A stretch of DNA of 64,000 bases, from the NCBI GenBank assembly GCA_019914945.1, contig CM034103.1, positions 3,782,001-3,846,000 of the forward strand, in the 5' to 3' direction. Made by a program: the position numbers and the translations under genes. Position 1 is the first letter of the stretch, and each line of letters opens with the position of its first letter. The DNA is from Typha latifolia. Taxonomy: Eukaryota > Streptophyta > Magnoliopsida > Poales > Typhaceae. The notes under the pieces are model-generated. The model had not been told where the DNA came from. It ran no database searches and worked only from the letters and a program-made list of their open reading frames with translations. Below, in pieces: positions 26,901 to 58,360 of this stretch.

Positions 26901-29900
26901 AAACGACAAGTTCAATTAAGTTATATAAGTTTCTAAGGTAAGTCTTAGTTTGAGCCATATAAGCATTTAGGGCTAAGTTCGAGTATGACTCGTTATAATC
27001 GACCTCTATATATAAAGGAGATAAGCTTCTTTATTTATTAATCCAATCCAAGCATTGAGAATCAATTAAGTTTAGTTATTTTCTTATTATCATATTTATC
27101 ATTTTATCGTAACCGTTAGATTGTCTTTACCTTTTTAGGAATAGATCATAGCCGTAGAACCTCCAAAGCTTTCAAACCCTAGTCATCACCTTCCTCCTCC
27201 AGCAGTCACCCTACTATACGGTTGTTCACCACCACCTTTAGCCGTTTGCCATCCTCCGACGACTACCACAATGTCAAATATTTATCGTTCTACCTCATTT
27301 TGACTTTGCTCCACTTTTTTATTAATATATTTTCATCCTGACCTCCGATTTATAACCCTAACTCACGAGGCTTCCACCACCTAAATTTTCATCATTTTCT
27401 TACATCCGGATCGGTCCAGATTTGGTTCGTAACAAATCTACTACGAATTGCTCCTGTATTCTTATAAAAGTTCTGCTATGTTTGATTTTTCTTTGTTTAG
27501 TAATTTGTACTAATTTCTGTTTCTGTTGTATATGAAGGTACTACTACATCATCTTTCAATGTTTTTCTTGATCTTTGACCTGAATAATACGTATTGGTTC
27601 TGTTTACACGTGGGCATGTTTTTAATGTTATAATTCATCATGAATCATGTTTATATGATCAATTATACTGGAATGTAGGATGGGTTCTGCGCGGGCAGTC
27701 AATCGCAGGTACATCAGTGATTGTGTTCCTGCTAAAATCCGGATGCAAGCTTCTGCAGGATTCGTTAGTGCAAGTGCTCTTGGCATGGCTTGTGGTCCTG
27801 CACTTGCTGGATTACTTCAATCTAATTTCAAGCTATATGTTTTTACTATTAATGCAAACACTTTACCTGGTTGGGTAATGGCTTTTGCTTGGCTTGCGTA
27901 TTTAATTTGGTTGTGGATTTCATTCAAAGAGCCAGTTCGTGATAGTGAAGTGAACAATGTTGCAGAGGATTCAGCTTCTGGTATGTATAATTTACTATAA
28001 CTATTCCGTTTCACTTTGCAGTATTCATGACTTGGGTTAATCAAAACTTGTGCTATCTTTCAATGTTAGATATAAAAGGAATCGATTTATGGTGTTTGAT
28101 CTCCGAATCAAAAATCTTATACTCATGTCATCACTCATGCCTGTAGAAAAGAACAAAGAAATGGTTTTCCTAATGGTCAAGGCCATCATTCACTTACTCT
28201 TGTTAGTAATGGAATTCTCTTAGTATGCATTTCCTCTTTATATTTGTGTTCTATTTGTGCAAGATGCCGAACTTGTTTCTTATATAGGCTATACTGGTGT
28301 CATTCTTGTTGTGAATATTAGCTACTTCAAATTACAAGACATATCATATGGATGATCATCATGGCTCTAACTGATCATCTAAGTAGACCTGGGAGTACGT
28401 TCTTGGCTGCATAACATTTTAATGAGACTGATATGCTGTATATGCTGCATATACAGCATAACACATTTATCTTAGTCCTGTATAAATATAATTTGGTTAG
28501 TGAGCATTAAGTATATGATAAATGGAAGTCACCTTGATCAGTTCCCATAAACTATGGTGGCTACTCAAATTTGTGGAATTTGTACTTTGGTTCTCTTGAT
28601 AAATGTATCTCTTATTGTTATCAAGGTTGTGAATGTGGCTGATAAGTCCCCGGACAGAGTTTTCCATCAACTTCCTAGACACTTATAGGCATTTAGGAAT
28701 AACACTAAATGACTTATGCTTGTCGTCAAACTATCTAAAAGCAAACTTTGGAACAATTTCAGGAGCATAAATGAAGACCTTTTGTTTACCCAAATGGCCA
28801 AATCAATTATATAGTTACAAGTAATAATGATATGATGAACATAGCAACAATGGCCGTGCTGTGTCACCATCGGCATGTCACACCCCACGCATTTCTAATA
28901 TTTATAATAAATTTTTAGGATATTTAGAGATGCTTTTGGATTTTCGATATGTCAATCTTTGGTTTATGGCTTAAATATATGTATTAAAATCTACATAATA
29001 GTACTTTATCTTTAGATTATTTTTGTAAATTATCTATTTTATTTAAGATAAAATAAAAGTTAAATATAAATATTATTCAACACATAATATGATTGAATAC
29101 ATTCATTAAAACTAATATTAATGATTGAACACTTTATAATATAATTAAATACTTTATTATATAATTGAACACATAATAATACTCAACACATAATATTAAT
29201 TGATAATAGTTCAATAATTAAAATTAATATCTAGATATAGAATGATGAGGAGGATTAAAGACTTCATTTGTCGGTACAAGAATAACACGAGAATATTATA
29301 TTAAATACTATCGATATTCTTCAAAACTCATCTACTGATAATATTGTTCATTATAATGTCACATAGTATTCATATAAATAAAAATTCTGTATTTCTCCTA
29401 TGATATGATATGAATATTGAACATGCATGGGAACAACTGGCACCAGCACAAGTACATGTACATCGTAAGTATATGCAGATTGTGGATATAAAGTATAGTA
29501 AATATGTGGTTGATATGACGGTAATGATGATGAACTCATATTAACTCATATGAAATAAATCTAATATGTTCTTGTACTAATTCTCATCCAATTTCAATGA
29601 ATTTGACATTAATTTGGATTTTTAAAATTTGGGAAAATCTAATTATGCAGAAATTTTAGCTAAATTTGTAAAATTTTGGTTCAAACCAACTAATATAGAG
29701 TTAATATAATCAAGGATGACCGTGCTGGTCGGCACTTGCCGTGCCGGCGGTGTACCGGCACGTGGCACTTCCTAATGCATCACCGCTCACCATCAACCTT
29801 GTCGTCGATCGCTACCCGCTGCTCGCCGCTCGCCGATCGCAACTTAAGTTTTTAACCCTCTCCCGATCTCTCTCTCTCTCTCGATCTCTCTGTCTCGATC

Positions 29901-32900
29901 TCTCTTCTCTCTTGGGGGCTAGGGCACGAAGCAGGCGGCGATCGGCGATCGGTGAACGATGGCGACGGCGACTACAATGGCAAAGGTGAGTATATCTTTC
30001 TCTCATTCTCTTACGGCACGGCCACGGCCACGGCCATCGTTGAATCTAATATGTTTCTACATCAATTTTGACCAATGAAAGACTAGGCTGCAGGTCAGCC
30101 TACAGCCCACAACTTACTATTAAAAGGTCGGGTCAGGTCTGCAATCCAGACCCGATCTCGAGAGAAGAAAAGGTTGGGCTCAGGTTGACCTGATGAGATC
30201 GATGAGGGAGAAAGAAGTATAAACATCAACAACTTTGAATTGGACCAGGAAGAGAGGGAGGAAAGGGAAGGGAGAGAGAAAATTGCCGGCGATCACTGTC
30301 GTTGGCAGTTTGCTGACCTCACCAAAGCCCTCCTCGTGACTATGCCGACTCCACGAGGTGGAGGAGAAGCCACCAGCGATGACCAACGGCCTAATTCCTT
30401 GGCCGGTGGCAATCTGAGCCATGAGAGCTCTCTATGAAGGTAGCAATGGCACGAGGCCATCGATGTGGAGCTCCTGTGCACGAGCGACAATGACCCGAGG
30501 CTACCGGTTGACCCGATTAGCCGATGAAGCTGCGATCTTGTAAGTTAGGTATTTCTATTTTAACCTATTAAACTTAAATTAAATTTGAGGGGTGGGAGAG
30601 GGCTTACCGAGGAGTCACGTGGTGGTCTCTGATTGCTCTGACGACGCTCTGGCAGTCTGATTCCACGACGACGATTCCGACGGGAAGAGGAGAGAGAGAG
30701 AGAGCAACGTATACTAGGGTTAGGGTTTTAATTTATAGTATATGTTTTTAAACCTATACTTGAGATCAAATTCGGATTTGGAGTGGCCAAAATCTGTTGG
30801 CCACTCCTTCGTCGCATAACTGTGAAGGAGAAGTGAGATGGTGTGCATTGTACGTGTGACCCCTTTTTTTTCTGTTCTTACATGTCCATTGCCTTGGCAC
30901 TCATAACATTTGACTTGTTCTCCTCGAAGTTTGAAATTTGATTTAGGAGTAGGTGTAGTGGAGGAGTCATTTGAATTCTTTCCTTTTTAAGTGTGTTTTC
31001 CTTTTGTGTGACTTGCACTTAAATTAGAATTCTTAAAAACTTCTTAAATTTCTTCACTTTCAAGATCAATTTCATCTTCAAAATTTAAGCTTTCGTTTAT
31101 GAGAAGAAAGAGACCTTTTATCGTTTTAGAAAGTCGTAGACTCTTAAGTTTGCAAATTATCTACCAATTGTTCTACTTGTATGGAGTTGACGTCTTGCTT
31201 TCTTCAATAGCCGTTACATCAATAGTCGTTACATTCTAATTGTTCATTGAGCTCTAGTTTCTAGCAATTAAACACACGCTTAGTGAAAGTAGATTGCCCT
31301 TAATTCGGCATGGATCACTCACTGAAAATAGTAGACATGTCCAATGATGTTTAGGCTCCTGCGCTGTTTCAATACATAGATGTCAATCTCCAAGCAATGG
31401 ACAAAAGAAAACTTTCCTAAACGGTAGAAAATAAACTCTTTGAGGAAAGTAGAACTCTCAAATAATTGATCTTTGAACCTTTGAGTTTCTTTGAGTTGTT
31501 CTAGCCTCTGATATCCTTTTATAATTGTGGAAGAATATCTCTATTTCATAGTAGGAGAATCACCAAAAGAAACAACCAAGTTTTATAGATTTCAAATTTT
31601 CTATAGTTGTTCTGCATAATCAGTTCTAACCGAACTGAAGTTCTTCAGCAGTTCTGAATGAAATATATCGATTTGATCCTATTATGCAAAACTGTTGAAT
31701 TTAACTTGATTTTAAATATGTTCTTTGATATCTTTGCATGTACAAGTCTTCCATAAATAGTATGAGTTGATTGTATATAAAATCTTAGATTGTATATCAT
31801 ATTCACTAGTGTTTTGTGTTCATGAATTTGCCATTACAAAATATTGCACTTCCAAATTCCAATGGGTAACTAGTTCCGTTATGCCTTGATATAAAAAAGT
31901 ATGAGGGTCTGATGAGTCTTTACGCATGACTGGTCTAATTCCAAGTTTGCTTTGGAATCCCTTTCCTTTATTCATTGGATCATCCTCTTTTTCCTTGTAA
32001 CTTTGCTCTTCTTTCTAGAGATATGATCAAACAAAATGTTTACTAATTGAACCTTAGAATCTATAAAGAAAGAGATGTTTTGGCCAAAGCACTCTTTTGC
32101 TCCTACGCAGCTAGCACAGCAGCCCTGCCTCATTATTCTATAAAAGAGATGCTTATTGTTATGTTGGGCTACTCATGACTGCCAGATTTAAGTCGATCCA
32201 TTCTCATCATCAGGAGTTACTGTTGATGGTTAAAAGTGGAGTATTTTATTGTGGAATCCTTGGATCTTTGAATAGAGCATCACTTAGTGTGGCAGTACAG
32301 CTTGTCCCTTGCATCTAAGAGGTCATGGTTGAAGTCAGAAAACGACCTTCTTGGGAATAATGCTAAGGCTGCGTACATCTTCTCTTTGACAACCCTAGTT
32401 ATGCACTAGCCTCATGTGCTGAGGCATCCTCTGATCTTAGAACCATACATTGATGCCAATCAACACGATCAGCATGGGGTAATACATCTTGTGCTAGTGA
32501 GTTAACAGCACCATTATAGGGGGAGCATCTCGATACTCTCTCATCCCCATGGCCATCCATGTCGGTGTGTGCCACTAGAAATTGAGCATATCTTATTTCA
32601 AACAATTCTACTTTGAGGTCTCTTTCATTCTTTTTGATACTCTTTGTACAAAGTAACAAGTGGAGAAATAAGTCAATAACCGAAGAATATTTACAACATA
32701 CTACAGTGGAATCCTTACATTTTTTTACATATATATTTTACCATATAATAAAATTTCGATGAACATATGATTAGATTACCTTATTTATGTCACTACCCTA
32801 CCTTAGTTGATCTAGTTTTTATGAAAGCTATTATACTGTGAAATTGATATAAATGAAAGTTCAACTTAAGATAGATATGTATTTATAGTATATGACTTCG

Positions 32901-35900
32901 ATGAGAAAATGTAGGCAAGTGATGTTAATCAATTTTATTATTCAGCATCCTCATATGTGGCTAGGCAATGAACATTGCAATCAAACTAGTGGAATGGAAA
33001 AGTAATCTCATAAATACTATTATGCAAATATGTAGCAAGCATAATTGGTTGATCGTTGAGTTGATGCGAGATGTTTTGGTTTCTTGCATTATCTAGGAGC
33101 TTGTTAGAATTTAATCAAAATGTCAAATAAGCAATGTGGGATAAGCTTTCAGAATATGATGTTGTTCATCAGCGTTGTTAACATTCAGTAGTAGTATTAT
33201 TCTTGGTAAATTATTTTGAGATGATAATAAGTTAGTGATGCTTTAGTAATGATATTTAGATGCCTAATCAAGTTGGCCCTACTTTGAAATAAACAGGACA
33301 AGCTGAAAATGAGGAACTCGAAAATGGTCTCGTGCAGCCTTTGCTCTTGACTTCAAAAAATAAACAGAATGAGGATGAAGACCAAGATTGTGATGATAGT
33401 GAAGAAGCCTCAGAAGACTCACGCAAACCTGCAACTTCAATTAGCTCAGCCTACAGATTGCTTACACCATCAGTAAAGGTTTGAGATGCTACCTTAAGCA
33501 CGAGTGAATGGATTGACATATGATTTTGTGTAAGCAATGTATAGTACATCTAATTGTTGCGCATTGGGTAGATATTCCAGAGTGCAAAAATTTGGATAAT
33601 GGCTTGGACGTCAATGAGAACCAAACCTTTAGTCCCAACTATTTTTGGCCCATCTGCTTACGATCTTAATACTGTTCCAATTTAAATATAATGATCATCC
33701 CTACTTGAGATTGAAGCTACTGTAGAGTAACAATGCAGAACTTCTAAATGTCATCTCTAATCTATGCAGATTAAAGTTATATTTCAATTCCTAAATTTTT
33801 CACTTACTATTACATGTTCTATAATCAAGAATTAGAAAATTTCTGATCTCCCAAACCATTCTAGGAGGCTCTTCCAAATTCTGATGCCTTATGCTGATTA
33901 TCTTATTTGTTGCTTTTAATAACATTTAATGTAAAATATGGACGATATCATTTATCTGGACCAAATTTGTTGGGTTTCTGGAACGCTTCAACTATCGAGG
34001 CAATGATTGCATTTACAACAAAATATCCTTATTTCTCTCTCTCTCTCTCTCTCACTCTCTCTCTTACCTGTATCACTGTCAAATTTGTTTTTATCTTTTT
34101 GATTATATGACAATTCTCATGCAGCAAGTTGTCGGCATGATATGTGCAACCCAGCATGCAATGGCTTATCAGGCAGAGAATTAGCTATATATTATGCATG
34201 TTTTTACAAGTATTGCTTCAACTTGTATTAAACCTACTTGTATTAGTTCCGCAGACATCCAATATCCATATTTCTGTGGTGGTAGGACTTAGGATTAGGA
34301 AGAATTTATGATTTCTTTCTTAAATGTATTGAACAAGCTTTTTGGGTTCTTCCACTTGTTTGAGCTCATTCTACATGGGAAAAAGAAGAATGACAAGAGT
34401 TCCAATCTTCATTTGCCTTTCAAAATTATCAAGTACCCAGTCTCATTATTTTTCAACTTGGTAATAGTTTCTCTTATTCATTCAAGTTAATAAAATTTTC
34501 TTTAATAAATGTTTGTAATTTATTTTAACCTATTATTTTGGGTTAATAAATCTTACAAGGCCTCAAATTCTATTAGCTAAGTTTAAATAAATTAAAGTTT
34601 AAAGCTTCTTTATTGAACTTAGTAGATTTAAATTTCCTTGGGTGGTTAATGTGATAGTTGCAAGTGGAAATGCTTATATTGTAAATTTTCTTGGACATGT
34701 TCTTTTGAACTTCATAAAATTGGAGATATTCTTCTCATTCAAGTAGATTAGCAGACTTCTGTTAAGATATTTCTTAGAAAAAGGAAAGAACAGTCTAGAA
34801 AACTGTGCTATGAACTTGAAAAGGGGCACAGTTATCCTTGGGCCCATGAGTATCATTTTGTGAGCTTTGATGTAAGTTCTTTTATTATTTGAATGAGATG
34901 GTATTCTAAACAAAATGTGCCATCTTGTGAACGACATGGGCCTATATTCAATTTGAGAAATCTTTAACTGTGCACATCATCAGTTCAGTAAATGATAAGC
35001 TAACTCCCATTATGTGCATATGTGAATGGGACTTGTGTGATTCTGTACACACAATGTATTCAACTTCTATAGCCAGCTAGTTGAACTTTGCAATAACAAT
35101 ATGGTAGTTGATGATAACATCATGGTCAAGCACAAGATTGCAATCTGCCTGTTCTTAATTTTCTGATTCCTATTTTGTGAGGTAATTTTTGTTCTAGGAT
35201 GAAAAACAGTTCTGTTTTACTACATCTTAACTGTTGTAGCAAGAAGTTAGCAACCTTTTTCCTTTGTGTGGTTTATCAAATTAATTTCTTTCACTCTTTT
35301 AGGTCCAGCTGTTAATATATTTCATGCTCAAATATGCCATGGAGATTTTACTTTCTGAATCAAGTGTCATTACCACCTACTACTTCAATTGGACTACAAG
35401 TTCAGTGGCTATATTTCTAGCAATTCTTGGGCTAACAGTTCTTCCTGTTAATGCTGTTGTTGGAACTTACATCAGCAACATGTTTGAGGATAGGTAGGAA
35501 ACATGTTATACTTCTTTACTGCTACTAAGATAATAATCTTTTTACATTTTTAAATGACCATTATAATCACTGTTTGGTTTACTGTTGTTTTAGACATATT
35601 TTGAAGTATACCTTCTTTCAAATGTTTGCATAAGGTAGTCTAGTCAGATACAGCCTCCTATTTCTCGTTCTTACTTTTGTTAACAGAATATACTCCATAA
35701 AACTGTATCACTGCATATGTAAATTCTTCTCTTCCTGTAAGGTGTACGCAACCTATTGAGAATCTCAAATCGATGCTATTAGAAAAAAGATACATATACT
35801 TGGCTTATCCCACTTAAGTTGTGCACATCAAGATATCTTTTGAGAATTTTATTCTCTCTTACATGACAGGGTATGACTTCTACATTTCTCAAAACATATG

Positions 35901-38900
35901 TCAGTAGAAAATCTCCTCGACATTAATTTCTGAGTCTTTTGTATGAAATCTATTGTCTTCAAACCGAATGATTGTTTTTCAGTCACCAAGATCTAAGAGC
36001 CTTTTGCAACTGTATGGAGTAATAGTACAAGTGAATTATCTCATATAGCTTGCACACCAGTGAGGACTGGCATTTGGTGATTGGTATAAATGTTAAAACT
36101 AGTTTATAACTTTATATGTTTTAGACTCAGTCAAAAGCTGGTAGCCTTCTACCTAATGCTAGAGGAAATCATGCCTTTGGAAACTTTTAGCATCTTTTAA
36201 GAACTTTATGTCTAACTGTCTTTCTTACTTCCAAAGTTCTCCCATTTGGCCTGAGAAAATGAAAAATCTTGGTTTCCTAAATAGACTTGTTAAATATTGT
36301 TGAAACATAACACTTAGGTTAGGGGGCACAAAAGTGGTTTGATATTATCTTTAATTAGTTTAGCTGTTTAAGAAGCAAGAAAACAATTGATTAGTTAATT
36401 TCCTGCAAGTGAGGATTTTGAGGTTGTCTTGGGCACTAATTTATAGATTCTAGATAGATGGTTATCACAAGTCACAACATGATATCGAAGCCAGATATCT
36501 AGAGGCAGTAGGTTAAATACTCTTGGTAGTCAGAGAACTATCAAATTTTCAAGGATCACATGGTTTTATCCTTAATGCCATAACCCAAGAGAAGAAACAG
36601 GCTTCTTGTTATGTCTTTAAACCATCCTTTCTTAGATAGGGATTGTGTCTTATTTATTATACCATCCTACAATATCTCATGTCTAAAATGGATAGTCACA
36701 CATTAATTTTGCACCATATGTGGAAAAGATTTGGACAACTGTTTTGAGCTATTTTATGCTGCTATATTCCCATTAATTAAGCATCTAATTCAAAAAATAT
36801 ATTGGACATTATTTCTTCCCATTTTAATTCAATATACTCTCCGACATTGTAATGAACCTTGTAGCTTTTGATAACTTGTTGTATTTCACAATATCTATAG
36901 GAGTAGTTCTTGCTTGCTTTCACTTCTGATCAATATTTTGCAGGCAAATATTGCTAGCATCTGAGATACTGGTCCTAGTTGGAATTGTCTTAAGCTTTCG
37001 CGTAACAAGCTCATACACAGTTCCACAGTATGTTTCCTCGGCGCTTATTACATTTGTATCTGCTGAAGTTCTTGAAGGTAAACTGTGAATGCTTTGGTAT
37101 TCATAAAATTGTACCTTTCCATGTCTAGGTTTGACTGCTGAACTGTCTTTTCTTCCTTTTTGTTGTGTAAGTTTATAACTAGGAATTTTACTGCCTATTT
37201 CCTTTGTTGCTGATTTACTATAAATAGGAAGACCACTAGACATGTATCTTCTAACAATCAACAAAGCTTGACAACAGTGGTTCTAGATAGCATGGATGGC
37301 CGTGCTGGTCAGCACACATTGTGTCGAGCCATACTGAATCATGCCGACTGGCACAGGTGTGTGCCATTCCGCACACATGCCGTGTTGAGCCATGCCGGAC
37401 TGGCGCAGCCGTGTGTCGTCCAGCACGGCTGTGTGCCAATCATTGTGCCATGTAGAGCTATTTTTATAATTTTTTTTATATTTTTATCAATCATTATCAA
37501 TTATTATCAAATTAACTGATGAATAGATCATTTAGAAGGGTTAGATAAAATTGATAATAATGAAACTAGAGATAATAATGATGATGGTGATGGTAATGGT
37601 AATAATAACGAGACTTAGTTTGGTGGCGGTGATAATAGAGATGAGACATGCATCCATATTACACAACATTCTTAAGAGGTATTATTTTTATAAAGGAATT
37701 GAGTTTATAGGTAGTAGGACATCAGGAGATGTGCACCCACACGATGATATGAGTTTATTATAATTACCATCATATCAATCACACTCATCAGAGCCAAAAC
37801 ACCATTATTACACTCTATATCCATAATTTGTATATGCTTATGGTGTGTCTATGTTTGTGCTGGTGCTATTCGTTCCATGTATGTTCAATATCCGTATCAT
37901 ATCATAGGAGAATTATAAAATTTTTATTCGTATGAAGGCTATGTGAGACTTTAGAATGAATGAGTTTTGAAAAATATTGGCAATATTTAATACAACATTC
38001 TCATATTATTTTTGTGCCGGCAAATAAAGTCTTTGATCATTCTCATCATTTTATATTCAACTAGATATTACTTTTAATTATTAAACTATTATCAATTAAC
38101 ATTATATGTTCAATTATATTATAGAGTGTTTAATCATTAATATTAGTTTTAATGAATGTCTTCAATCATAGTATGTGTTGAATAATATTTATATTTAACT
38201 GTTATCTAATCTTTAATAAAATATGTCATTTACAAAAAATAATTTAAAGATAAAATATTATAATGTAGGTTGTAAACTATTAGTATATATTTTAAATCAA
38301 ACTAAAAATTGCCATATCGAAGACCAAAAAATATCTTTAAATATCCTAAAAAGTTTATTAAAAATATTATAAATGTGTGCTAGTGGCACGGCATGACTCA
38401 TGCCACTAGCACGGCCATCGTTGCTAGATAGTATGGTTGTCTTTCTTTGTTTGAAGATGTGAGATAAGTGATATTTCTCTATTATTAGAAGAAAACGCTC
38501 TTTTTTTATTCATTTCTATATCATTCTTTAGATATCATAAGTTATAACTAACAGAAGAAATTTGGAGCCTAGTGGAAGGGTTTATTCATTACTAGAAAGG
38601 ATCGCGTGCTTTGAGAAACTTGACTATAGAAGTAGATAAATTGAGTAAAGAACAATCTTTCTTGATCTAATCATTGCCAATTATGCACAATAAGACCTTT
38701 TGGTCTTTTTGACTTTGTAAGACCACAAGGTTTTCTTACATTGAAAAAAAAAGGAAGTGATGTGGCCTATGGACATGAATATATTCCGATATAGGAAAAC
38801 ATAAGGAGGTACCATGATTCGTCCCAAGAAAAAATGATAGGGCATCTATGAATCTCTTTATCTATCCAAGTAACTTTTTCTTTATCTGTCCAAGTAACTT

Positions 38901-41900
38901 TTTCATACTAGCATAGCTAGATAGATAGGAAAGATAGAAAATAACCCATCAAATCGTAGATGCACCTAAATTGTGGTGGCAGAGGGGGTGTGGTATCTAC
39001 TACAAAAGAGAGGAGAGGAAATAGGAGAAAAAGAGGAAGCAGAATGGAAAGAGGGATAAATATGGAATCCTCCACAACAATATCATTTCTCAATTTTTCA
39101 TTTTTTATTGGATTCCCATCATCTCTATATATAGAGATGGCGAGATTACATCAAATTACAAATTGATCTTATTCCAGTCTATCCTAATATAATATATAAA
39201 TAAACTAGGACTCTTTTAATTTAAAAAATAATCAAATCTTAACAAAACCTACATCAAAACAAACCAACAATCAAATCTTCTAGATTTTTAGGAATTTGAA
39301 CTAAATTAGGCACTCTAAACTCAAATCTAGTTTTTAGATAGTAGTACATTCAAAAATAAAAAAATAAGTAAAAATCTAATTCCCATAATTTGATTCTGTT
39401 GCACCAATCTTATCTTGAGATTATCTTCACAATTTGCATTTTTGGATCTTTCTTCATAAGATTATTAGATTATTATGTACTCAATTTTTATATTTGTGAA
39501 TTAGATTTCCTTCATGATCGGTTCCGTCGAATATAAACTTGCTCTGAACTAAATTGATGTGGACTAAGGGGGAGAAACCATGCCAATACGAAAAAAGGTA
39601 GAAGGTACCTAGATTCACCCTAACTAGAAAAGATAGGCCTTTGTAAATGTTTTTATCTGCCTCCAAGTACTGTTTTTATAATAGCATAGCTAAATGGATA
39701 GGAAAGATAGAAGATAATCTACTAAGTCATGGAGGAAAGAAGATTAAACTCACCTAGATTGGAAAAGCAAGTGTGGTATCCACCACGAAAGAGAGGAGAG
39801 GAGGGGAATATAGATAATTGTGAATACTCCACAAAAAATTTATTCTCAAAATTTGCAAAATTTTTCTGTGTTTTTTGGAATTCTCATCACCTCTGTTTAT
39901 AGAGACAAGGAGATTACGTCAAATCATAAGTTGATCTTATTCAGATATTTCTTAATCTAATATATAACTATTCTAAGATTATTTTAATTGAAAAATTAAT
40001 CAAATCATAATAAAACCTCAAAATAAGCTAATAATCAAATCACCTAGATTTTTAGGAGTTTTAACCAAATTAGACACCCTAAACTCAAATCTAGTTTTTA
40101 GATAAAAGTACATCTGAAAATAAAAAATAAAATCTAATTGCCATCAGGAAGAAGTTGATGCATTCTAGAGGTGCTTATTCACTTGAGAGGAAAATATTTT
40201 ATACATCAACTGAAAATCTCTTTTTCCAAAGCAAATCAACTTCCATTCTTCTATGATCCACAAAATTTCTAGTTCTATTGTAACTGAAACGAGAAGTAAT
40301 TGAAACCCAAAATAGGTTTGAAGAGAAGAGAGGATTTTGGTGAAAATATTTTCCTTGAAAACGATAAAGGACCTTAGCCCTATTTATACAAGTCATCATA
40401 TATGTAAATAAATAAATGAAATATAACATAATAACTATAATACCCCCTTCAAACTCAAGGCAGATCATAAATCGAGAGTTTGCTAACTAGATACTTAAAA
40501 TGCGAAACAGGAAGCGGCTTTGTGAAGAAGTCGGCAATTTGCTCCTTAGTGCTGCGGCGATGAAAAGAAATGATGTCAGCTCAGTACTCCTGGAGAGTGT
40601 AGTGTATATTGACCTTAATGTGCTTCGTTCTTTCATAAAAAATAAGATGTTCAACGAGCTTTTTAGCACTATCATTGTAGACATAAAGATGAGTTGAGAA
40701 GATCAAAGGAACACCCATATCACTAAGGAGGCGATGGAGCCAAACAATCTCCTTAGTCACTGCACATATTGTAGATACTCTGACTCAATATTGGAGAGAA
40801 ACACCACATTCTACTTCTTGTAGTGCTAGAAAATTAGAGTCTCCCAGAAAAATGCAGAAGCTAGTAGTAGACTTTCAATCAGATTTATCACCAGTATAGT
40901 TTGCATTGAAATAAGCCCGCAGAGCCAAGATGAAAGTCGATAGTATGAAGAAAAAGTGGGTGATGATGTCACGAAGATATCAAAGAATACGCATAAGAGC
41001 AACATAATGGGTAGTTTGAGGAGCCTGTATGAACTGAGTGACAAGACCAATTGCATTAAAGATATTAGGTCGATTAATGGTCAAGAAGATGAGTGCCCCA
41101 ACTAGCTAACGATGTCGCATCTGGAAGCAGCTGATCGTCATCGAGCTGAAGCTTTACATGAAGCTCAACTGAATTAGCAACTAGGACAGCAAAAAGACCA
41201 CGGGATAACTGAGCAACTTCGATACAAAAGAGAACCAAGGTTCTTCATCTCAAACTGACTTTAAAGATGCTGCTGAAGGGAGCGGATCTGGACCATGTCA
41301 GCTTTGGTAATAATCATATCATCGACATACAAAATGAGGACCCAAACCTAAGCAGAAGATCGTAGAAATATAGATAGCTCAGAGGATAGACTGTGAGAAG
41401 ACTACAAAATTGATCAAATTAAGCATGAGAGCCTGCTTGAGCCCATAGATAGCTTATCGCAATCGACAAATATGACCTGAGGGAAGAGAAAAATCGGGTG
41501 GAGGATCCATATACACTTCCTCATCAAGAAGACCATAAAGAATCGCATTCTTTACATCCATATGATGAAGTAGTGACTAAAAGCAACAGTAAGAATAGTA
41601 CGAATAGAGGTTATCCAAGTAACAGGAGCAGAAGTCTCCTCATAGTCTATCCTATATTCCTAAGTAAAATCCTGAGCAATCAAACGAGCTTTGTATTTAG
41701 CAATGGATCCATCAAGTTGATGCTTGACCTTGAAGATCCATTTGCAACTAACAGACATGATGCTGGGTAGGCAAGGGACAACATCCTAAATATGCATCTA
41801 TTCAAGGGCCTGAAGCTCATCTGCCATAGCCTGCTGCTACTCTAGAACCTGAACGGCCTCACGAGATGACTTTGGTTGGGGGATAGAGTGGATGGCTACA

Positions 41901-44900
41901 ATGAATGTGTGAAACTAGTGAGAGTATGTGGCGTAAGACATAAGAAAATCATATCAGTCGAAAGGGTGACGTTCACACTCTGGATAACAAGGAGCAGGTG
42001 CAAGAGCCGTCATAATAGATGATGGGATGGTCGGAGGAATACTACTAGTATAAGAAGGCTCAGAAGTAGGAAGAGGATACAACTTGTGAGTGTAGAAATA
42101 TGACAAGGTTATCATGGGAAAGGTACTCCTCTAGAAGAGCTAGAAACTTAGTGAGAGAATAGTCTGGAGGGGCAGAGGGAATTGATAGTAAATGAGTGTC
42201 CATGGATAGAGGAGTATTAAGCAAGTGGAGGGCAGATGGTCGGGCTGAGGTAGAGATATCTAAGGGGATGAAAGATAGGATAGGTGTAGGAAGATCCAAA
42301 AAGGATAAACTTGAGGGAAGTAGTATCTTTTTCAGAAAAGTGACATAGTGTGATATCCTAAGACGATGAGTAGATGCATCATAGTAACGATAGCCTTTAT
42401 ACTCATGACTATACCAGAAAGACACACTTAGCTTCTCAATCAGACAACTTGTTACGTTCACCAGAAAGAAGAAGAACAAAGAAAGTGCACTTAGAGACAC
42501 AAAGATGACCATAAAATGGTGATCTACCAAAGATATGCTCGTACGGGGTCACACCATCAATGACTAATAATGGAGTTCGATTAATGAGGTAGAGAGCAAT
42601 AAGAAGGGCCACAGCTCAATAAGAGCAAGGAACATAGGCCTCAAACAAAATAGCATGAGTTGTCTTAAGAAGATGACAATGCTTTTGTTTGGCAATTCCA
42701 TTCTAAGCAGGGGTATAGGGATACGAGTGCTGAGGTAGGGTACCGATAGAGGCATGAATGGAACGAAACTCAGAGGAAAGGTATTCATGAGCACCATTCG
42801 ACCGGAAGACCTTAATGGATCGACCAAACCGAGTTCGAACCATAGAAGAGAAATCACGATAGATCTGACATACCTCCAAGCATTGACGCATGAGGTAAAC
42901 CTAAGTGAAATAAGAGAAACCATCAATATAACAAACATAATAGAGAAAACTAAAATTTGAAGATAGAGGAGCAAGGCTGCAAATATCAAAGTACACAAGG
43001 TGAAAGGGGGAATTAAAGATATTCTCACTAAGAGAAAAAGAAAAGGCTTGATGTTTTGCCAATTTACAGTTAGTACAAGGAGGCAAAATAGAAAAACAAT
43101 TACTGCCAAAGCACCCAAACCGGGACAAGGTCTTGAGATGCTGACTCGATACATGACCTAGATGTGATGCCAAATATTTGGAGAGAGAGGGGTGACTGGA
43201 CAAGCACTAGGGCGAGGTGACAAAAGGTGAATTTGATCCAGGTAGTAAAGCTCATGAATCCTACTAATCCTGATCCTCTAGCCTGTAGATGGGTCTTGCA
43301 CAACATAAGTAGAAGAGAAAGATATAGTGTAACTAGAGTTAGAAAGTTGAGTAATAGAAATAAAACTCATAGTTATACGAGAACAAACCAGGCATCAAAT
43401 AAAGTAAGTCGACTCGTGGGGTCTATAATGGGTAATTTGACCAATATGAGAGATGGCGTAATGAGTCTCATCTACTGTGTGAATATGAGGAAGAGCAAGA
43501 GGGGCAGAGGTGAGGCTAGAAAAAATGGAGGAGTCAACAGTCATATAATGTGAGGCGCTAGAATAAAAAAATTTGGGTTTAATCATACCAGGGACAATAG
43601 AGGCAGAAGTAGAGGTGCTAGTAAAGCTAAGAGCGCTATGAATAAGCTGCTGAATCTATTGTAGTTGTGCACTGCTGAATGTGGAATTGGTAGAGTGATC
43701 AAATAGATTAGTACTCGGGACAACAGTTGAGGAAGTGAAGTGACGACTCTTGTCCTTGCTTGATCCCTCTTTGTCGAAGTTGGGAACAAGCTCAAAATGA
43801 AGTCAATAGCAGTGAGCGACAAAATGACCAGGACGATCGCAATGAATGCACATAGGGCGCGATGAGTGATGGTCTCGTCCAGACACGAGTGGTGTGAACA
43901 ATAGTTGAAATATCAAGTGTGACTGATATAAGAGCAGGGGCAGCATTGAGTACACTCTCTATGGCAAAAAAAGATGGTGTAGCGGTGGCCTGCTGAGAGG
44001 ATAAGAGACGCTGCCTAAGCTCCTCAACTTGTAGCTTAGCAACAGCACTGTCTAGACTTGGGTGAGTGGAGCCATACAATAGATGATGAGTCAAATCCCT
44101 TAACTTTGGACTTAAAGTAGCTAGAAAGTCTATTAATCGATCCTCGTCACGGTGCGCTAAGCAATTGCCGAGTTAGAGGGAGAGAAAATAGGCTCCATTG
44201 ACGTGAACTCATGCCATATGTCAGTCATGCGAACATAGAAGTTCTGGATAGATAACTAACCCGGTCTAGCCTCTTGAGCGTCACGACGAAGTTGAAAATG
44301 ATGCATCAAACTTGACTGAACAAATCGACAATCGAGGTGATCCTAGACAGCCTAGGCTAAAAAATAATGTCGGAAGCTGAGGTCGAAATGATCGGTCGAC
44401 CTGCGATATAAAATAAGTGCAGATCTCTATGTTCTGCAAAGCCCACTCGACATATTCAGGAGAAGGGACCTCAAACTGAATAGCTTTGGGCGTGCTAGAC
44501 TTAGTAGAGGTTACAGTGGTAGTATGAATGACTGTGTGAGGGGGAGCACACCCTATAAAGATGCCGTCAATGTGCCCAACGAAACGTCGCCCGTGAAGAA
44601 CTATCTTGATAGAAGATGTCCAAGTGATCCAATCACTCTGGGTGACAAGTAGAAAATCAACCAAAGACACTCTCATGACCAACCGAAACATAAGACGTCA
44701 TTGGAGAAGATGTCAATTTGACAAACACCTTGAGGGCATTTTGAGAAGGACAAAGAAAATTTTCTCAAACCTTTTGGCAAACAGAGCAGAGTCTTAATTT
44801 TCAATGAGGCTTTTTGTTGAACAGCATGTGAGCCGCTCAAAGCTATAAGATGATTCTTGGCAGAGAAAGGGGCACTCGACCTCTTCGGTATAGTGGTGAA

Positions 44901-46496
44901 GAGAAGAGGAGTCGCAGTAGAAAAGCTCAAAGGCTTGGCAACCAGCGACAATCGAAGAGCTTGGGGATGGCGATCGATGAAGAAGCTCATGACAACTGGA
45001 TTGACGCTGTGGTGAGAGAAGCTCACCAGGGAAAGCAGCGGAGTGTTTAGGCGTGGGTGCAGCAACAAAGGTTGAAGCCCAAGCGGAGTGCTCGTAGGAA
45101 GCTCTCTGTGCTGCCCAAACCGGGAGACGAGCACGGCACGGCGAAGATAGGAAGAAGAGTGTGGCTGAGGAAGACGAGGAAGCTCAACGCTCCTCTCTAA
45201 TGGTGGCGCTCTCGATTGGAAGGGGCATGCGACAGGAGAGAATCCGTTGACAACTCAGGAAAAGGAGAGAAGGCAGAGATGTTGACAGGGACACGACGCA
45301 GCGAGCTAGAGAGGAGTTTCCGGTGACTCGATGGAGCTGGCGAGACGTCTCAGCCACAGAGAGATTTGGGAGGGAGAATGAGCAGGGAAGGTGGAAGATG
45401 AAGGCGATCCAGTGGCTGAGAAAGAATCCTAGAAATTGGATGGCTCTAATACCATAAAACGAGAAGAGATCCAAACCCAAAATAGGTTTGAATAGATGAG
45501 ATGATTCTAGTGAAAAGTGTTTTCCTTGAAAATGATAGGGGACCTTGGCCCTATTTACTTAAGTCATCATTTATGTAAATAAACAAATGAAATATAACAT
45601 AATAACTCTAAATAGTAACAAAAGGCCCAAATGAGTAATTACAATTACTCTCTATTCTTGTCACTTGCAGCAAAAACATTATTCGCCTGAAGGTTAAAAA
45701 AAGAGAATGTGGAGAGCTAGAGAGAGGGAGAGTCACAAAATTCAGCTCTATTTATCTAACATCTTCATACTTAACAAGAGAGAGAGAGACTTCATGAAAT
45801 TTGCCATCTCAGGGTCAAGAACTCATCGCAAGGGTGAGAAAAGTATGAGTACTTTCTCTTTCTCTCTATCCTGGGTTGAACATTTTTGAATCTTAAAGAC
45901 ATATTAAGGGTACTGAGGTGCTAAAATTTGTTCAGAGGTTTAATGCAAAGTTTGTAATCCAATCCATGCTGCAAGTTCTGGGAGTTGCATAAAACTGCTT
46001 CAAACTTTGAGAGCATATAAGCAACTCACTTTTCTATACATGAAAAAGAGATGTTTTCAGAGATATTTAATTCTTATTCTGGATGCTCACGTTGAATTCT
46101 TTCTTTTTCTCAAGTAAATCACTTGTTGAATTTATTATTTGGACAGGTACTAAGTACGATTCTTCTTTTCCTCTGTTCTTTTCTTTTCTTCCTTGAGAAA
46201 AAGAAACACTATTTCCTCTCCTCTGTTCTTGGAAATATAATTGGTTGGCTTATGCAGGTGTAAACCTTTCACTTCTTTCAACTGTCATGTCCTCCCGCCT
46301 CGCACGTGGAACCTACAACGGCGGGCTTCTCTCGACGGAAGCTGGAACCTTGGCACGAGTGGTTGCGGATGGCACGATTACTCTGGCTGGTTACTTGGGT
46401 GAAGACAAGCTCCTCAATGTCACTTTGCTCCCTTCTCTGCTTATCTGTCTAACATCGATTGCCGCCACAATCCTTACCTACAACTCACTTTTTTAA
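17969..46496 (+). CDS. SPX-MFS: SPX-MFS vacuolar phosphate transporter (PHT5/VPT family), complete
   Basis: Moves inorganic phosphate across the tonoplast; the SPX domain senses inositol pyrophosphates. Ten coding exons, all GT-AG and in frame: 17969-18021, 19701-19821, 24349-24660, 24856-24960, 25055-25509, 27679-27980, 33297-33478, 35303-35493, 36944-37077 and 46258-46496, giving 697 residues, the family's usual length. SPX domain: MVNFGKKL at the N terminus, [11 protein letters not shown] (residues 19-29) and the basic KILKKFDKR (126-134), which together form the phosphate/inositol pyrophosphate pocket. The MFS part starts near residue 248 ([17 protein letters not shown]) and has GRLLCG plus a [11 protein letters not shown] loop. 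An acidic loop ([15 protein letters not shown]) comes from exon 7. The C-terminal MFS segments end in TILTYNSLF. No breaks were found. A MIR399 gene follows downstream. Orthology to rice SPX-MFS1, 2 or 3 is not resolved. Confidence 0.97.
20884..21150 (+). other. Purine-rich insertion-like stretch in SPX-MFS intron 2
   Basis: Strongly G+A-rich, unlike the surrounding AT-rich intron, with GGCACAC/GTGCC words at its left. Possibly a repeat fragment of unknown type. Confidence 0.3.
23262..23328 (+). repeat. Compound microsatellite (GGT)n then (GT)n
   Basis: Uninterrupted GGT units run to about 23310, followed by GT units to 23328, in intron 2. The long Gly/Val and Pro readings across it are artefacts. 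Confidence 0.95.
23640..23959 (-). mobile_element. hAT-like non-autonomous element, one end recognised
   Basis: The right edge (GACCATTCTTG) is the inverted terminus of the same family as 29711-30042 and 37291-38423. Inside are the same GTGCCGGC/GCCGTGCC words and AACTTAAGTTT. The other end was not found, so length and target duplication are uncertain. Confidence 0.4.
26674..27434 (+). repeat. Solo LTR or LTR fragment related to the 10.3 kb gag-only element
   Basis: In SPX-MFS intron 5. From about 27000 it parallels the LTRs at 10289 and 13043: CTATATATAAAGGAG, then an ATCGTAACCGTTAGATTGTC-type block, then CTCCAGCAGYCACCCTACYATA and CCTCCGACGAC words. It ends near GGTTCGTAACA. The borders given are the best TG...CA fit; no clear target duplication was found, so ends may be off by tens of bases. 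Confidence 0.65.
28845..29560 (-). mobile_element. hAT-like element, truncated copy of the 37291-38423 element
   Basis: It starts CAACAATGGCCGTGCT, the family's terminus, and runs as the reverse complement of about 37740-38423: the CATTTCTAATATTTATAATAAA block, the ACACATAATATTA block and the GATATGATATGAATATTGAACATG block all correspond. The opposite end is missing or too decayed to see. Confidence 0.65.
29711..30042 (+). mobile_element. Short hAT-like element with inverted ends
   Basis: Begins CAAGGATGACCGTGCTGG and ends CACGGCCATCGTTG, inverted repeats of one another with mismatches. It is flanked by AATATAAT (29703-29710) and AATCTAAT (30043-30050), an eight-base target duplication with one mismatch, as hAT elements make. 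The interior is GC-rich with a TCTCGATCTC run near 29860-29910. It has no transposase. Confidence 0.7.
30860..31120 (-). pseudogene. Copia-type gag fragment
   Basis: Read on the minus strand: [12 protein letters not shown], a Ser/Thr-rich stretch with [12 protein letters not shown], then [13 protein letters not shown], a CCHC zinc knuckle whose last Cys is lost. In-frame stops are present. It lies in SPX-MFS intron 6; neighbouring pol sequence was not recognised. Confidence 0.65.
34034..34065 (+). repeat. CT microsatellite in SPX-MFS intron 7
   Basis: CT units with one interruption. Confidence 0.85.
37291..38423. mobile_element. hAT-like non-autonomous DNA transposon with perfect 8-bp target duplication
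   Basis: In the last SPX-MFS intron. The left end CATGGATGGCCGTGCT and right end AGCACGGCCATCGTTG are inverted repeats, with the CA...TG termini usual for hAT elements. It is flanked by identical CTAGATAG (37283-37290 and 38424-38431). It is 1133 bases long. Subterminal regions are rich in GCACGGC/GCCGTGC words; the core is AT-rich with no transposase reading frame. Confidence 0.85.
38758..40146 (-). mobile_element. TRIM-like LTR element with a 166-bp interior
   Basis: Two direct repeats, 38758-39388 and 39555-40146, start TGATGTGG and end CCAT(A/C)A, separated by only 166 bases. They are flanked by perfect five-base duplications GGAAG (38753-38757 and 40147-40151). Minus orientation is suggested by TTCAGAGCAAG (read on the minus strand just inside the right repeat), a worn iMet primer site. 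Nothing is coded. Repeats of about 600 bases are long for a TRIM, so it may be a deletion derivative of a larger element. Confidence 0.8.
41000..41800 (-). pseudogene. Reverse transcriptase region of the copia element
   Basis: Minus-strand readings near 41750-41480 include [21 protein letters not shown] and [10 protein letters not shown], the usual start of copia RT; later parts are broken. Open frames on the plus strand here are antisense shadows. Confidence 0.75.
42560..43300 (-). pseudogene. Pre-integrase and integrase region of the copia element
   Basis: Minus strand: [12 protein letters not shown] and [10 protein letters not shown] give the His/Cys zinc part. [15 protein letters not shown] with YVCYIDGFS starts the catalytic core, and [17 protein letters not shown] with [10 protein letters not shown] continues it. 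The acidic residue usual in FRSDGA reads Asn here. Several frameshifts. Confidence 0.85.
43800..44691 (-). pseudogene. gag of the copia element, with zinc knuckle
   Basis: Pieces include [20 protein letters not shown] at the start and a clean CCHC knuckle, [14 protein letters not shown], at 43850-43809 (minus). Frame changes fall between the segments. Confidence 0.8.
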
Positions 46497-46794
46497 TAGA
46501 GCTGTCTATCTCTCTAGTTGGTGGATACGCTCAATTAAATTTATTCATGTCCAATGAAAGTTCAAATTAACATTTCCTACCTCTGTCGAGGAACTCTCTC
46601 TCCTAGTGTTTATTCTTTTGTAGAATTTATACATGATTGAATTGTGAAATAATCAATTCTCTCTTTTGACTCGTCATCTAGGAGCTGTGACAGACTCATA
46701 AGCAAGTTGCTGCTGGCTAGCTTGGATGTGAGTATTGTATTAGTAATTTTTTTCCCAATTTCCGTACTATTTTCTTGATGTTGTCAGAGAGTTG

Positions 46795-46800
46795 AATAAA
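46795..46800 (+). terminator. Poly(A) signal of the SPX-MFS gene
   Basis: AATAAA about 300 bases after the stop codon, within a T-rich stretch; a usual 3' UTR length. Confidence 0.55.
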
Positions 46801-46849
46801 AGATATAGTCCTTCACCTTTTCGCATCCAAATTTGATTATCGACCAGCT

Positions 46850-46990
46850 ATCGGTCGTTAGAGCTCAATTAGTTAAATGGGCTTATTTATTCGAATCTTA
46901 GTAGTATCAATATATAATATTTAGTTGGACACTATTATGTTTTTTCTTATTTCAAGAAAAAAAGAGAAATTCGAATCAACATAAGAGGAC
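46850..46990 (+). mobile_element. Possible tRNA-derived SINE fragment
   Basis: GAGCTCAATTAGTTAAATGG resembles a Pol III A box and TTATTCGAATCTTA a weak B box, about 30 bases apart, followed by AT-rich sequence. Weak support. Confidence 0.3.
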
Positions 46991-47444
46991 CTTATTTGTT
47001 GGAGAAGAGTAAAGAGTTAATGACTAGGATGACAACTAATTAATATGCTAGAAAAACGAGCAGAGTCCGCAACGAGTTAAAAGGAAAAATTTTATTTGTT
47101 CATCAATCTCTTTAATGAAATCATTATTGGTGTAGATTCATAGATAGCGAAGAAAATTAAAATTTGGCTTCAAGGTGCATTCCCATTCACCTTCTTTAAA
47201 ATCAAGATATTTGATGGTTTTTTGTGCATATAAACTCATATCTAAAATACCTCTCCCACATGGACAGAGATTAACCCTAAAAGTTGTCATATATCGAGAT
47301 ATAGCATGTTCGAGAAGGTGGTATATATGTCTAACGAATATTTTCTAATGCTTTAACCTGCACACTCCAAAATTCTCGTTTCTTTTATAAAAAAATAAAT
47401 AAAAGTACACTTTAACTATGATACATGCTCCATCTATTGTTTAA

Positions 47445-47446
<2 letters not shown>

Positions 47447-47485
<39 letters not shown>
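47447..47485 (+). repeat. AT microsatellite
   Basis: About 19 AT units, uninterrupted. Confidence 0.95.
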
Positions 47486-47492
<7 letters not shown>

Positions 47493-47869
47493 TTTTAGAA
47501 GAAAGAGTTGAACCCAGTTATATTAATAAGAACTAATTATAAGTTGGAGTATTGAGATTCTCTTTTTGACATGAAACACTATATTTAGATAGATGAATTA
47601 CAAATTTATTTACATATGTCAAGAAGAATCAATGTCGGATATAGTAATTTTGCTCAATAAAAATTGCTAACTAGATAGAACGATTTTTGGCACGCTTAGC
47701 CAATTAAAGATTTGTTATAGAATCTACTGAACGATTTATATGGCAAATTAAGTTTTTATTTTCTCTAACTTTTAGGAAGCAGGAGGCCCACGTCGTTTCC
47801 ATGTAGGAGGGGTCAAGGACGTCCGCTTGAAATGCCCAAAAGCGAGCATGAGATAGGAATATTACGACA

Positions 47870-47877
47870 GGATATGC
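47870..47877. promoter_or_regulatory. PHR1-binding box (P1BS) upstream of MIR399
   Basis: GGATATGC matches GNATATNC exactly. It lies about 410 bases before the MIR399 hairpin. Confidence 0.5.
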
Positions 47878-48081
47878 CACCTTGAGACCCCTCTCACCTG
47901 CCACCTTTCTCCTTTACAAAGGAGAGATCTGGGAGATTAGAGCATATATTTCTCCTCTTCTACCCCTCCTCTCCCTTCTCAAGGTCAAGATCATGCTAAG
48001 AGGAATCACATACCATGGGAGGGGTCAGCTTTTGGAAGAGACCATAGAGGAAAAAGGTGAGTTGAAGATTTATTGAGAGGA

Positions 48082-48089
48082 GGATATCC
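48082..48089. promoter_or_regulatory. PHR1-binding box (P1BS) upstream of MIR399
   Basis: GGATATCC matches GNATATNC exactly and is a perfect palindrome. It lies 200 bases before the hairpin. Confidence 0.65.
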
Positions 48090-48125
48090 ATGGTATAACC
48101 CCTTGTCAACTCAAGTGGGATATCA

Positions 48126-48133
48126 GCATATGC
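48126..48133. promoter_or_regulatory. PHR1-binding box (P1BS) upstream of MIR399
   Basis: GCATATGC matches GNATATNC exactly. It lies 60 bases before the TATA-like TATAAG. Confidence 0.65.
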
Positions 48134-48192
48134 CATATTGCCATGGCTTCATGGGCTTGTGCTACCTATCTTTCTGGCCCAAGAAGTCGCAT

Positions 48193-48198
48193 TATAAG
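48193..48198 (+). promoter_or_regulatory. Likely TATA box of MIR399
   Basis: TATAAG, about 90 bases before the hairpin base and 60 after the nearest P1BS box; the spacing suits a start near 48225. Confidence 0.5.
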
Positions 48199-48282
48199 AA
48201 GCTCTAGAGGTAGTGAGAAGAGATCAGCAAGCAGGTGCATGGAAATTTCGAGGAGAAGTGGCGACGCGTCGCCGGCTTTCGG

Positions 48283-48427
48283 TTAAGCTGCGCAGTCGTA
48301 GGGCTCCTCCTCCTTTGGCAGGTGGTGGAGAGAGAGAGAGAGAGAGATGCAGTGGTTGTGTGCATAATTTGCTCACTCTCAAGTGGCCTGCCAAAGGAGA
48401 GTTGCCCTACGAATGTCTTCAGCTTAA
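48283..48427 (+). ncRNA. MIR399: MIR399 precursor hairpin (phosphate-starvation microRNA)
   Basis: The mature miR399 sits on the 3' arm at 48389-48409: core TGCCAAAGGAGAGTTG, last base A where most family members have G. The star strand lies on the 5' arm at 48301-48322 (GGGCTCC...CTTTGGCAGG), leaving the two-base 3' overhang of Dicer-like cuts. The arms pair as TAGGGC/GCCCTA and CTCCTTTGGCA/TGCCAAAGGAG with a small mismatch between. The base extends through TTAAGCTG (48283-48290) with CAGCTTAA (48420-48427). The loop holds a GA run (48328-48347). miR399 is known to move from shoot to root and cut PHO2 (UBC24) mRNA, raising phosphate uptake. Three P1BS boxes upstream suggest PHR-driven induction. 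The 82- and 70-codon open frames across the hairpin are chance. Confidence 0.93.
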
Positions 48428-48459
48428 AAAACATCATCTCACAGTAGCACAGCAGAAAT

Positions 48460-58322: not shown

Positions 58323-58329
58323 TATAAAC
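58323..58329 (+). promoter_or_regulatory. Likely TATA box of the KCS gene
   Basis: TATAAAC, only 38 bases before the first in-frame ATG. Transcription would start near 58353, leaving almost no leader for that ATG, which favours the second ATG at 58415. Confidence 0.5.
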
Positions 58330-58360
58330 AAACAAGCATCCATCCACAAACTTCATCTGC

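Follow-up and report, generated by a model that had tools for sequence, protein, structure and literature searches.

Why should a gene for a putative vacuolar phosphate transporter and a gene for the phosphate-starvation signal miR399 lie side by side? The question is raised by the window studied here, the whole 64,000-nucleotide stretch C5:3782001-3846000 of the 214-Mb assembly of broadleaf cattail, Typha latifolia (Poales). In this stretch an SPX-MFS gene of the PHT5/VPT type is followed, about 1.8 kb past its stop codon and on the same (plus) strand, by a MIR399 hairpin. A sequence-only reading of the window had noted this arrangement and proposed that the linkage is old, shared with Arabidopsis and perhaps kept by selection. 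The analysis makes it likely that the two are independently transcribed phosphate genes in an old conserved neighbourhood, which was duplicated before the Poales arose and in which the linkage was kept in both copies.

The linked pair in the window

The ten coding exons of the SPX-MFS gene, spread over 28.5 kb, are joined at GT/AG borders into an unbroken frame of 697 amino acids (Table 1), in which the Pfam domains SPX (51.2 bits) and MFS_1 (84.4 bits) were recognized. Enumeration of the splice possibilities gave 96 models, of which the one using borders 24660, 33478, and 35493 was chosen by its likeness to PHT5 sequence. The choice is borne out by a protein of Typha angustifolia that agrees with the model at 100 % identity (rounded) over its full length; a T. 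latifolia protein is 100 % identical over 96 %. By homology, the protein may reside in the tonoplast and transport inorganic phosphate. No miR399 target site was found in this gene at up to five mismatches (17001-46900, introns included). A decayed Ty1-copia-like element (named by eye; minus strand, window ~40280-45610) with short terminal direct repeats sits inside the 9.2-kb last intron, where the exon borders are GT/AG.

The MIR399 hairpin (fold of 48280-48430) has a free energy of -75 kcal/mol and a z score of -8.2, equalled by none of 200 shuffles. Its mature/star duplex is near-complete, interrupted by a single 1-nt bulge and a 2x2 internal loop, and the core UGCCAAAGGAGANUUGCCC, which we take to be the miR399 consensus, is matched exactly. 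The Rfam model RF00445 (MIR399) fits 48289-48419 on the plus strand with 41.5 bits (E 2.5e-7) and the minus strand with a lower score of 31.7 bits. At the curated cut-offs, the Rfam scan does not list the locus, 41.5 bits standing against a cut-off of 57 for RF00445; this cut-off is a rule for listing and not a biological feature, and hairpin and mature core agree with MIR399. The intact gene model, the fold, and the Rfam match thus confirm what the two neighbours are and how they lie to each other, as read from the letters before.

Upstream of the hairpin, three P1BS (PHR1-binding sequence) motifs occur in 450 bp where 0.14 are expected (p ~4e-4, for a stretch picked after the sites had been seen), while over the whole window there is no excess of this motif (17 vs 19.4 expected). 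Together with a TATA-like box, read by eye and of presumed function, they make the MIR399 gene look self-sufficient, that is, equipped with a promoter of its own. A scan for bacterial promoters and terminators is uninformative for plant DNA.

A second linked pair in the genome

A search of the whole genome with the SPX-MFS exons gave 18 matches, nine at the window and nine on C3, and hence two SPX-MFS genes. The miR399 core was found exactly at 17 sites: seven in hairpins, nine in an array on C5, and one on C11. Searching at one or two mismatches added one further hairpin, C2:4471086; a reversed-pattern control gave a single site at up to two mismatches. The resulting census of eight MIR399 genes is limited to sites with no more than one mismatch; four scattered ones with two (C1, C3, C5, C7) were left unfolded. 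Of the eight hairpins, that of the window alone was folded against shuffles. Six of these genes form three divergent pairs (C1 18660155/18661875, C2 4471086/4473916, and C5 15780055/15781552). The two single ones are that of the window and C3:15640110 (+), which lies downstream of the C3 SPX-MFS gene on the same strand, at a distance of 10.7 kb and with one gene between them. A MIR399 gene is thus found downstream on the same strand at both SPX-MFS genes, and an SPX-MFS gene near none of the other six MIR399 genes. With two SPX-MFS genes and five MIR399 loci placed at random in 214 Mb, ~2.5e-4 same-strand pairs within 10.75 kb would be expected; two are observed, and they probably descend from one ancestral pair.

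The MIR399 genes themselves point the same way. With the mature sequence set aside, the precursors of the window and of C3 match each other best, with scores of 37 upstream and 21 downstream, against at most 26 and 19, respectively, for other pairs involving either gene (13 pairs with the window or C3 gene, of the 28 pairs among the eight genes; no shuffle control). The match extends over 40 bp at 90 %, the mature sequence included. Both promoters contain a common block, GGATATCC..GGTATAACCC..GCATATGCCA, of which the outer parts are P1BS. A G at position 13 of the mature sequence (...GAGAGUUGCCC) is seen in these two of the eight MIR399 genes only, which differ at the mature 3' end (CUA in the window, CUG on C3). 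A comparison of the two hairpin structures gave 32 pairs, two of them compensated, in an alignment that misplaces part of the C3 5' arm and therefore says little. Taken together, these likenesses suggest that the linkage is shared by common descent.

Age of the linkage

The SPX-MFS tree was built from 48 proteins, 46 picked by taxon out of 211 fetched and two modelled here, with a midpoint root for drawing. The window gene falls into an eight-row Poales clade with the known rice protein Os06g0129400, presumably SPX-MFS3 (support 99/99), and the C3 gene groups with Os02g45520. Palm, Zingiberales, Asparagales, and Dioscorea rows are present in both the window and the C3 clades. Acorus, Spirodela, Anthurium, magnoliids, and eudicots make up a separate group (100/99), which the drawing places next to the C3 clade by a weakly supported fork (58/26). 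In the approximately unbiased (AU) test, for which the groups were named once the tree had been seen, a Typha-only clade (p 4e-8) and a Poales-only clade (p 0.001) were both rejected. The duplication of the SPX-MFS gene predates the origin of the Poales, and the pattern is the one expected of the monocot tau whole-genome duplication.

Since the SPX-MFS duplication is older than the Poales, so is the linkage, provided that the MIR399 genes came along; it is probably at least as old as that duplication. The proposal that the linkage is old is in this way upheld, the pair being present at both SPX-MFS genes found in the genome.

Weighing the explanations

The favoured course of events would run as follows. 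Downstream of an ancestral SPX-MFS gene, on the same strand, lay a MIR399 gene of the position-13-G type; the pair was duplicated before the Poales, probably in the tau event, and both copies stayed linked, each gene under its own promoter. Upon phosphate starvation, PHR would bind the P1BS block ~155-420 bp upstream of MIR399, and miR399 would lower PHO2 in Typha as it does in the pathway of its family. The SPX-MFS protein would, by homology, serve vacuolar phosphate transport, with a transcription not tied to phosphate. Expression of both genes in Typha, PHR binding, and their function there are inferred in this scheme.

Several observations weigh against this scheme. The distances within the two pairs differ six-fold (1.8 vs 10.7 kb), and the C3 pair is not adjacent: a UBE2O-like gene (C3:15633564-15637728) resembling PHO2-like genes lies between its members. 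The window, extended by 10 kb at either end (84 kb), was compared with 80 kb of C3 by tblastx, and among the rows above 40 bits SPX-MFS alone matched. When the window was aligned by blastn with a 50-kb part of C3, nothing collinear was found besides the SPX-MFS exons and MIR399. Three further queries were taken from the flanks, namely a TCP gene and two stretches named by eye (a dehydrogenase exon and a Per1-like one); for each of them the best paralogue lies elsewhere. As no further gene is collinear, a duplication of the whole block is not demonstrated. The downstream margin of the precursor match is slim, and position 13 is also G at two of the unfolded two-mismatch Typha sites. In the tree, the placement of Dioscorea in the window clade is weak (58/26; the clade has 96/93 without it). 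PHT5;1, finally, is not wholly constant, because the level of its mRNA is reported to move with that of miR827 (PMC8091714).

The differing distances and the lack of another collinear gene would suit independent events, in which two MIR399 genes reached SPX-MFS genes separately or the pairing arose by chance. The sequence-only reading had itself named differing distance as a sign of such events, and in distance the pairs do differ. Mutual-best precursors, a common promoter block, a mature variant of identical form, and the small number of pairs expected by chance speak against this course, which is very unlikely. The least probable proposal, and a highly improbable one, is that MIR399 is processed out of extended SPX-MFS transcripts. 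The same strand and the short distance of the window pair would allow it; against it stand an AATAAA at 46795, read in the sequence ~300 bp past the SPX-MFS stop, the three P1BS and the TATA-like box immediately upstream of the hairpin, and the intervening UBE2O-like gene on C3.

A selected linkage is a more serious candidate, albeit still an unlikely one: the P1BS block 3' of the SPX-MFS gene would act as a shared PHR switch (through an enhancer or a repressor, or by interference at the level of chromatin or transcription) and would thereby couple vacuolar storage to the miR399 signal. The pair is kept at both Typha SPX-MFS loci, and probably in Arabidopsis too, with order and strand identical at the two Typha loci, the P1BS block is conserved, and no other common neighbour was found (84 kb vs 80 kb). 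Neighbouring genes can, however, remain together without selection, and the persistence of the linkage is explicable without it. P1BS motifs occur within 1.2 kb upstream of seven of the eight MIR399 genes, linked and unlinked alike, so that they are explained by MIR399 promoter function, and no link to the transporter is needed. The wider spacing on C3, with a gene in between, also counts against a shared switch, as does the description in a review of PHT5 expression as not phosphate-responsive, the protein being controlled via its SPX domain (PMC11062440). Because MIR399 has its own promoter, PHT5 is described there as unresponsive, and the C3 pair is interrupted, read-through and simple co-induction are disfavoured, and the selection, shared chromatin, shared PHR control, and read-through invoked in the sequence-only reading went unsupported. 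We also regard as improbable the wider proposal of an ancestral angiosperm locus, an SPX-MFS gene with a 3' position-13-G MIR399 older than the monocot-eudicot split, that was retained at most of the loci descended from it since the PHR-bound block also tunes the transporter, tying vacuolar storage to the starvation signal in cis.

The linkage of a phosphate-storage gene and a systemic starvation-signal gene thus receives a date, pre-Poales and perhaps before the monocot-eudicot split. Variants or deletions close to one of the two genes may also affect the other.

Features of the locus and further MIR399-related sites

Table 1 Coordinates of the features discussed (positions in the window, except where C3 is given)
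Feature	Position	Strand	Remarks
SPX-MFS (PHT5/VPT-type) gene	17969..46496	+	697 aa from ATG to stop in 10 coding exons; Os06g0129400 clade
SPX-MFS exons 1-5	17969-18021, 19701-19821, 24349-24660, 24856-24960, 25055-25509	+	
SPX-MFS exons 6-10	27679-27980, 33297-33478, 35303-35493, 36944-37077, 46258-46496	+	
Last SPX-MFS coding exon	46258..46496	+	46258, exon start; 46496, stop
P1BS GGATATGC	47870..47877	.	419 bp upstream of MIR399 hairpin
P1BS GGATATCC	48082..48089	.	Kept in C3 MIR399 promoter
P1BS GCATATGC	48126..48133	.	Kept in C3 MIR399 promoter
TATA-box-like TATAAG	48193..48198	+	~90 bp upstream of hairpin; read by eye, putative function
MIR399 precursor hairpin	48289..48419	+	Fold, Rfam RF00445 match
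miR399 mature UGCCAAAGGAGAGUUGCCCUA	48389..48409	+	Position 13 G, 3' arm; ends placed by family likeness
Second SPX-MFS gene	C3:15622018-15629360	+	546/697 alignment columns identical to window gene

The UBE2O-like gene of the C3 locus shares 42 % identity with the PHO2-like gene of C5 in a stretch of 262 residues and is devoid of miR399 sites at up to three mismatches. A miR827-like site at C3:15619035, with two mismatches to what we take to be the miR827 complement, lies 3 kb upstream of the ATG of the C3 SPX-MFS gene; none was found in the window SPX-MFS gene at up to five mismatches. The window also contains an open frame of 502 amino acids (58328-59833) of the FAE1/CUT1 (3-ketoacyl-CoA synthase) family.

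Two loci that had come up in the search for the miR399 core, C11:8364910 and the array at C5:14.04 Mb, were ruled out as MIR399 genes: they are antisense target arrays next to UBE2O-like genes, and the C11 site does not fold into a MIR399 hairpin. The C5 array (C5:14037977-14038594) has nine exact sites and one with three mismatches, with a spacing of 44 bp among six of these, and the C11 array (C11:8364647-8365089) has six sites at up to two mismatches; both are located upstream of UBE2O-like genes that are putatively PHO2-like. A paper on barley implies five miR399 sites in PHO2 (PMC3878733), compared with which the C5 array looks expanded. Among the divergent MIR399 pairs, the C1 plus, C5 plus, and C2 minus members group strongly by upstream sequence (scores 71-88) and the remaining members more weakly. 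The divergent pair may be an old unit that was inverted on C2.

Comparison with other plants

Consecutive Arabidopsis Genome Initiative (AGI) locus numbers mean neighbouring genes. At1g63005 is given as miR399b in one paper (PMC7909446) and AT1G63010 as PHT5;1/VPT1 in the review cited above (PMC11062440). By locus number, the same two families are probably neighbours in Arabidopsis. The Arabidopsis part of the sequence-only reading is in this way supported indirectly, the two identities being found in print and the adjacency itself being read from the numbering rule; such a pair would perhaps push the linkage back to the monocot-eudicot split. No description of an SPX-MFS/MIR399 linkage was found in the open-access literature, among the matches listed, and AT1G63005 and AT1G63010 occur together in the text of no paper in the open-access literature searched.

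The mature sequences extend the parallel. Arabidopsis miR399b has the position-13-G form of the window and C3 genes and ends in CUG, as does that of C3, whereas that of the window ends in CUA; according to one table, ath-miR399b and c are of the G form and ath-miR399d and f of the U form (PMC5396198). The Typha genes suggest a rule for sorting MIR399 genes, as position 13 is G in both SPX-MFS-linked genes and in none of the six unlinked ones. Arabidopsis miR399b conforms to it, yet miR399c has the same form, so that a G at position 13 alone is no marker of linkage, a further point against the favoured scheme. With such a rule, any plant genome can serve to test whether selection is at work. 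In grape, Vvi-miR399b, c, and i appear as position-13-G type in a table (PMC2831844), and the corresponding genes are placed on chromosomes 16, 15, and 2, with a, d, e, f, and h on chromosome 10 (PMC10931670). The grape genes with the G form of the window and C3 genes thus lie apart from the chromosome 10 group.

In rice, the counterparts of the window and C3 genes are found in the Os06g0129400 and Os02g45520 clades, respectively. osa-miR827 is described as targeting SPX-MFS1 and 2 (PMC9409226), and the presence of a miR827-like site before the C3 gene and its absence from the window gene are in line with this description. Conserved microsynteny as such is of a known kind. Some MIRNA clusters (miR395 and miR169) are reported as syntenic between monocots and dicots, and miR399 is named among the cluster-forming families (PMC2812943). 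The clusters described there join MIRNA genes to one another, whereas in Typha a MIRNA gene stands beside a transporter gene of its own pathway.

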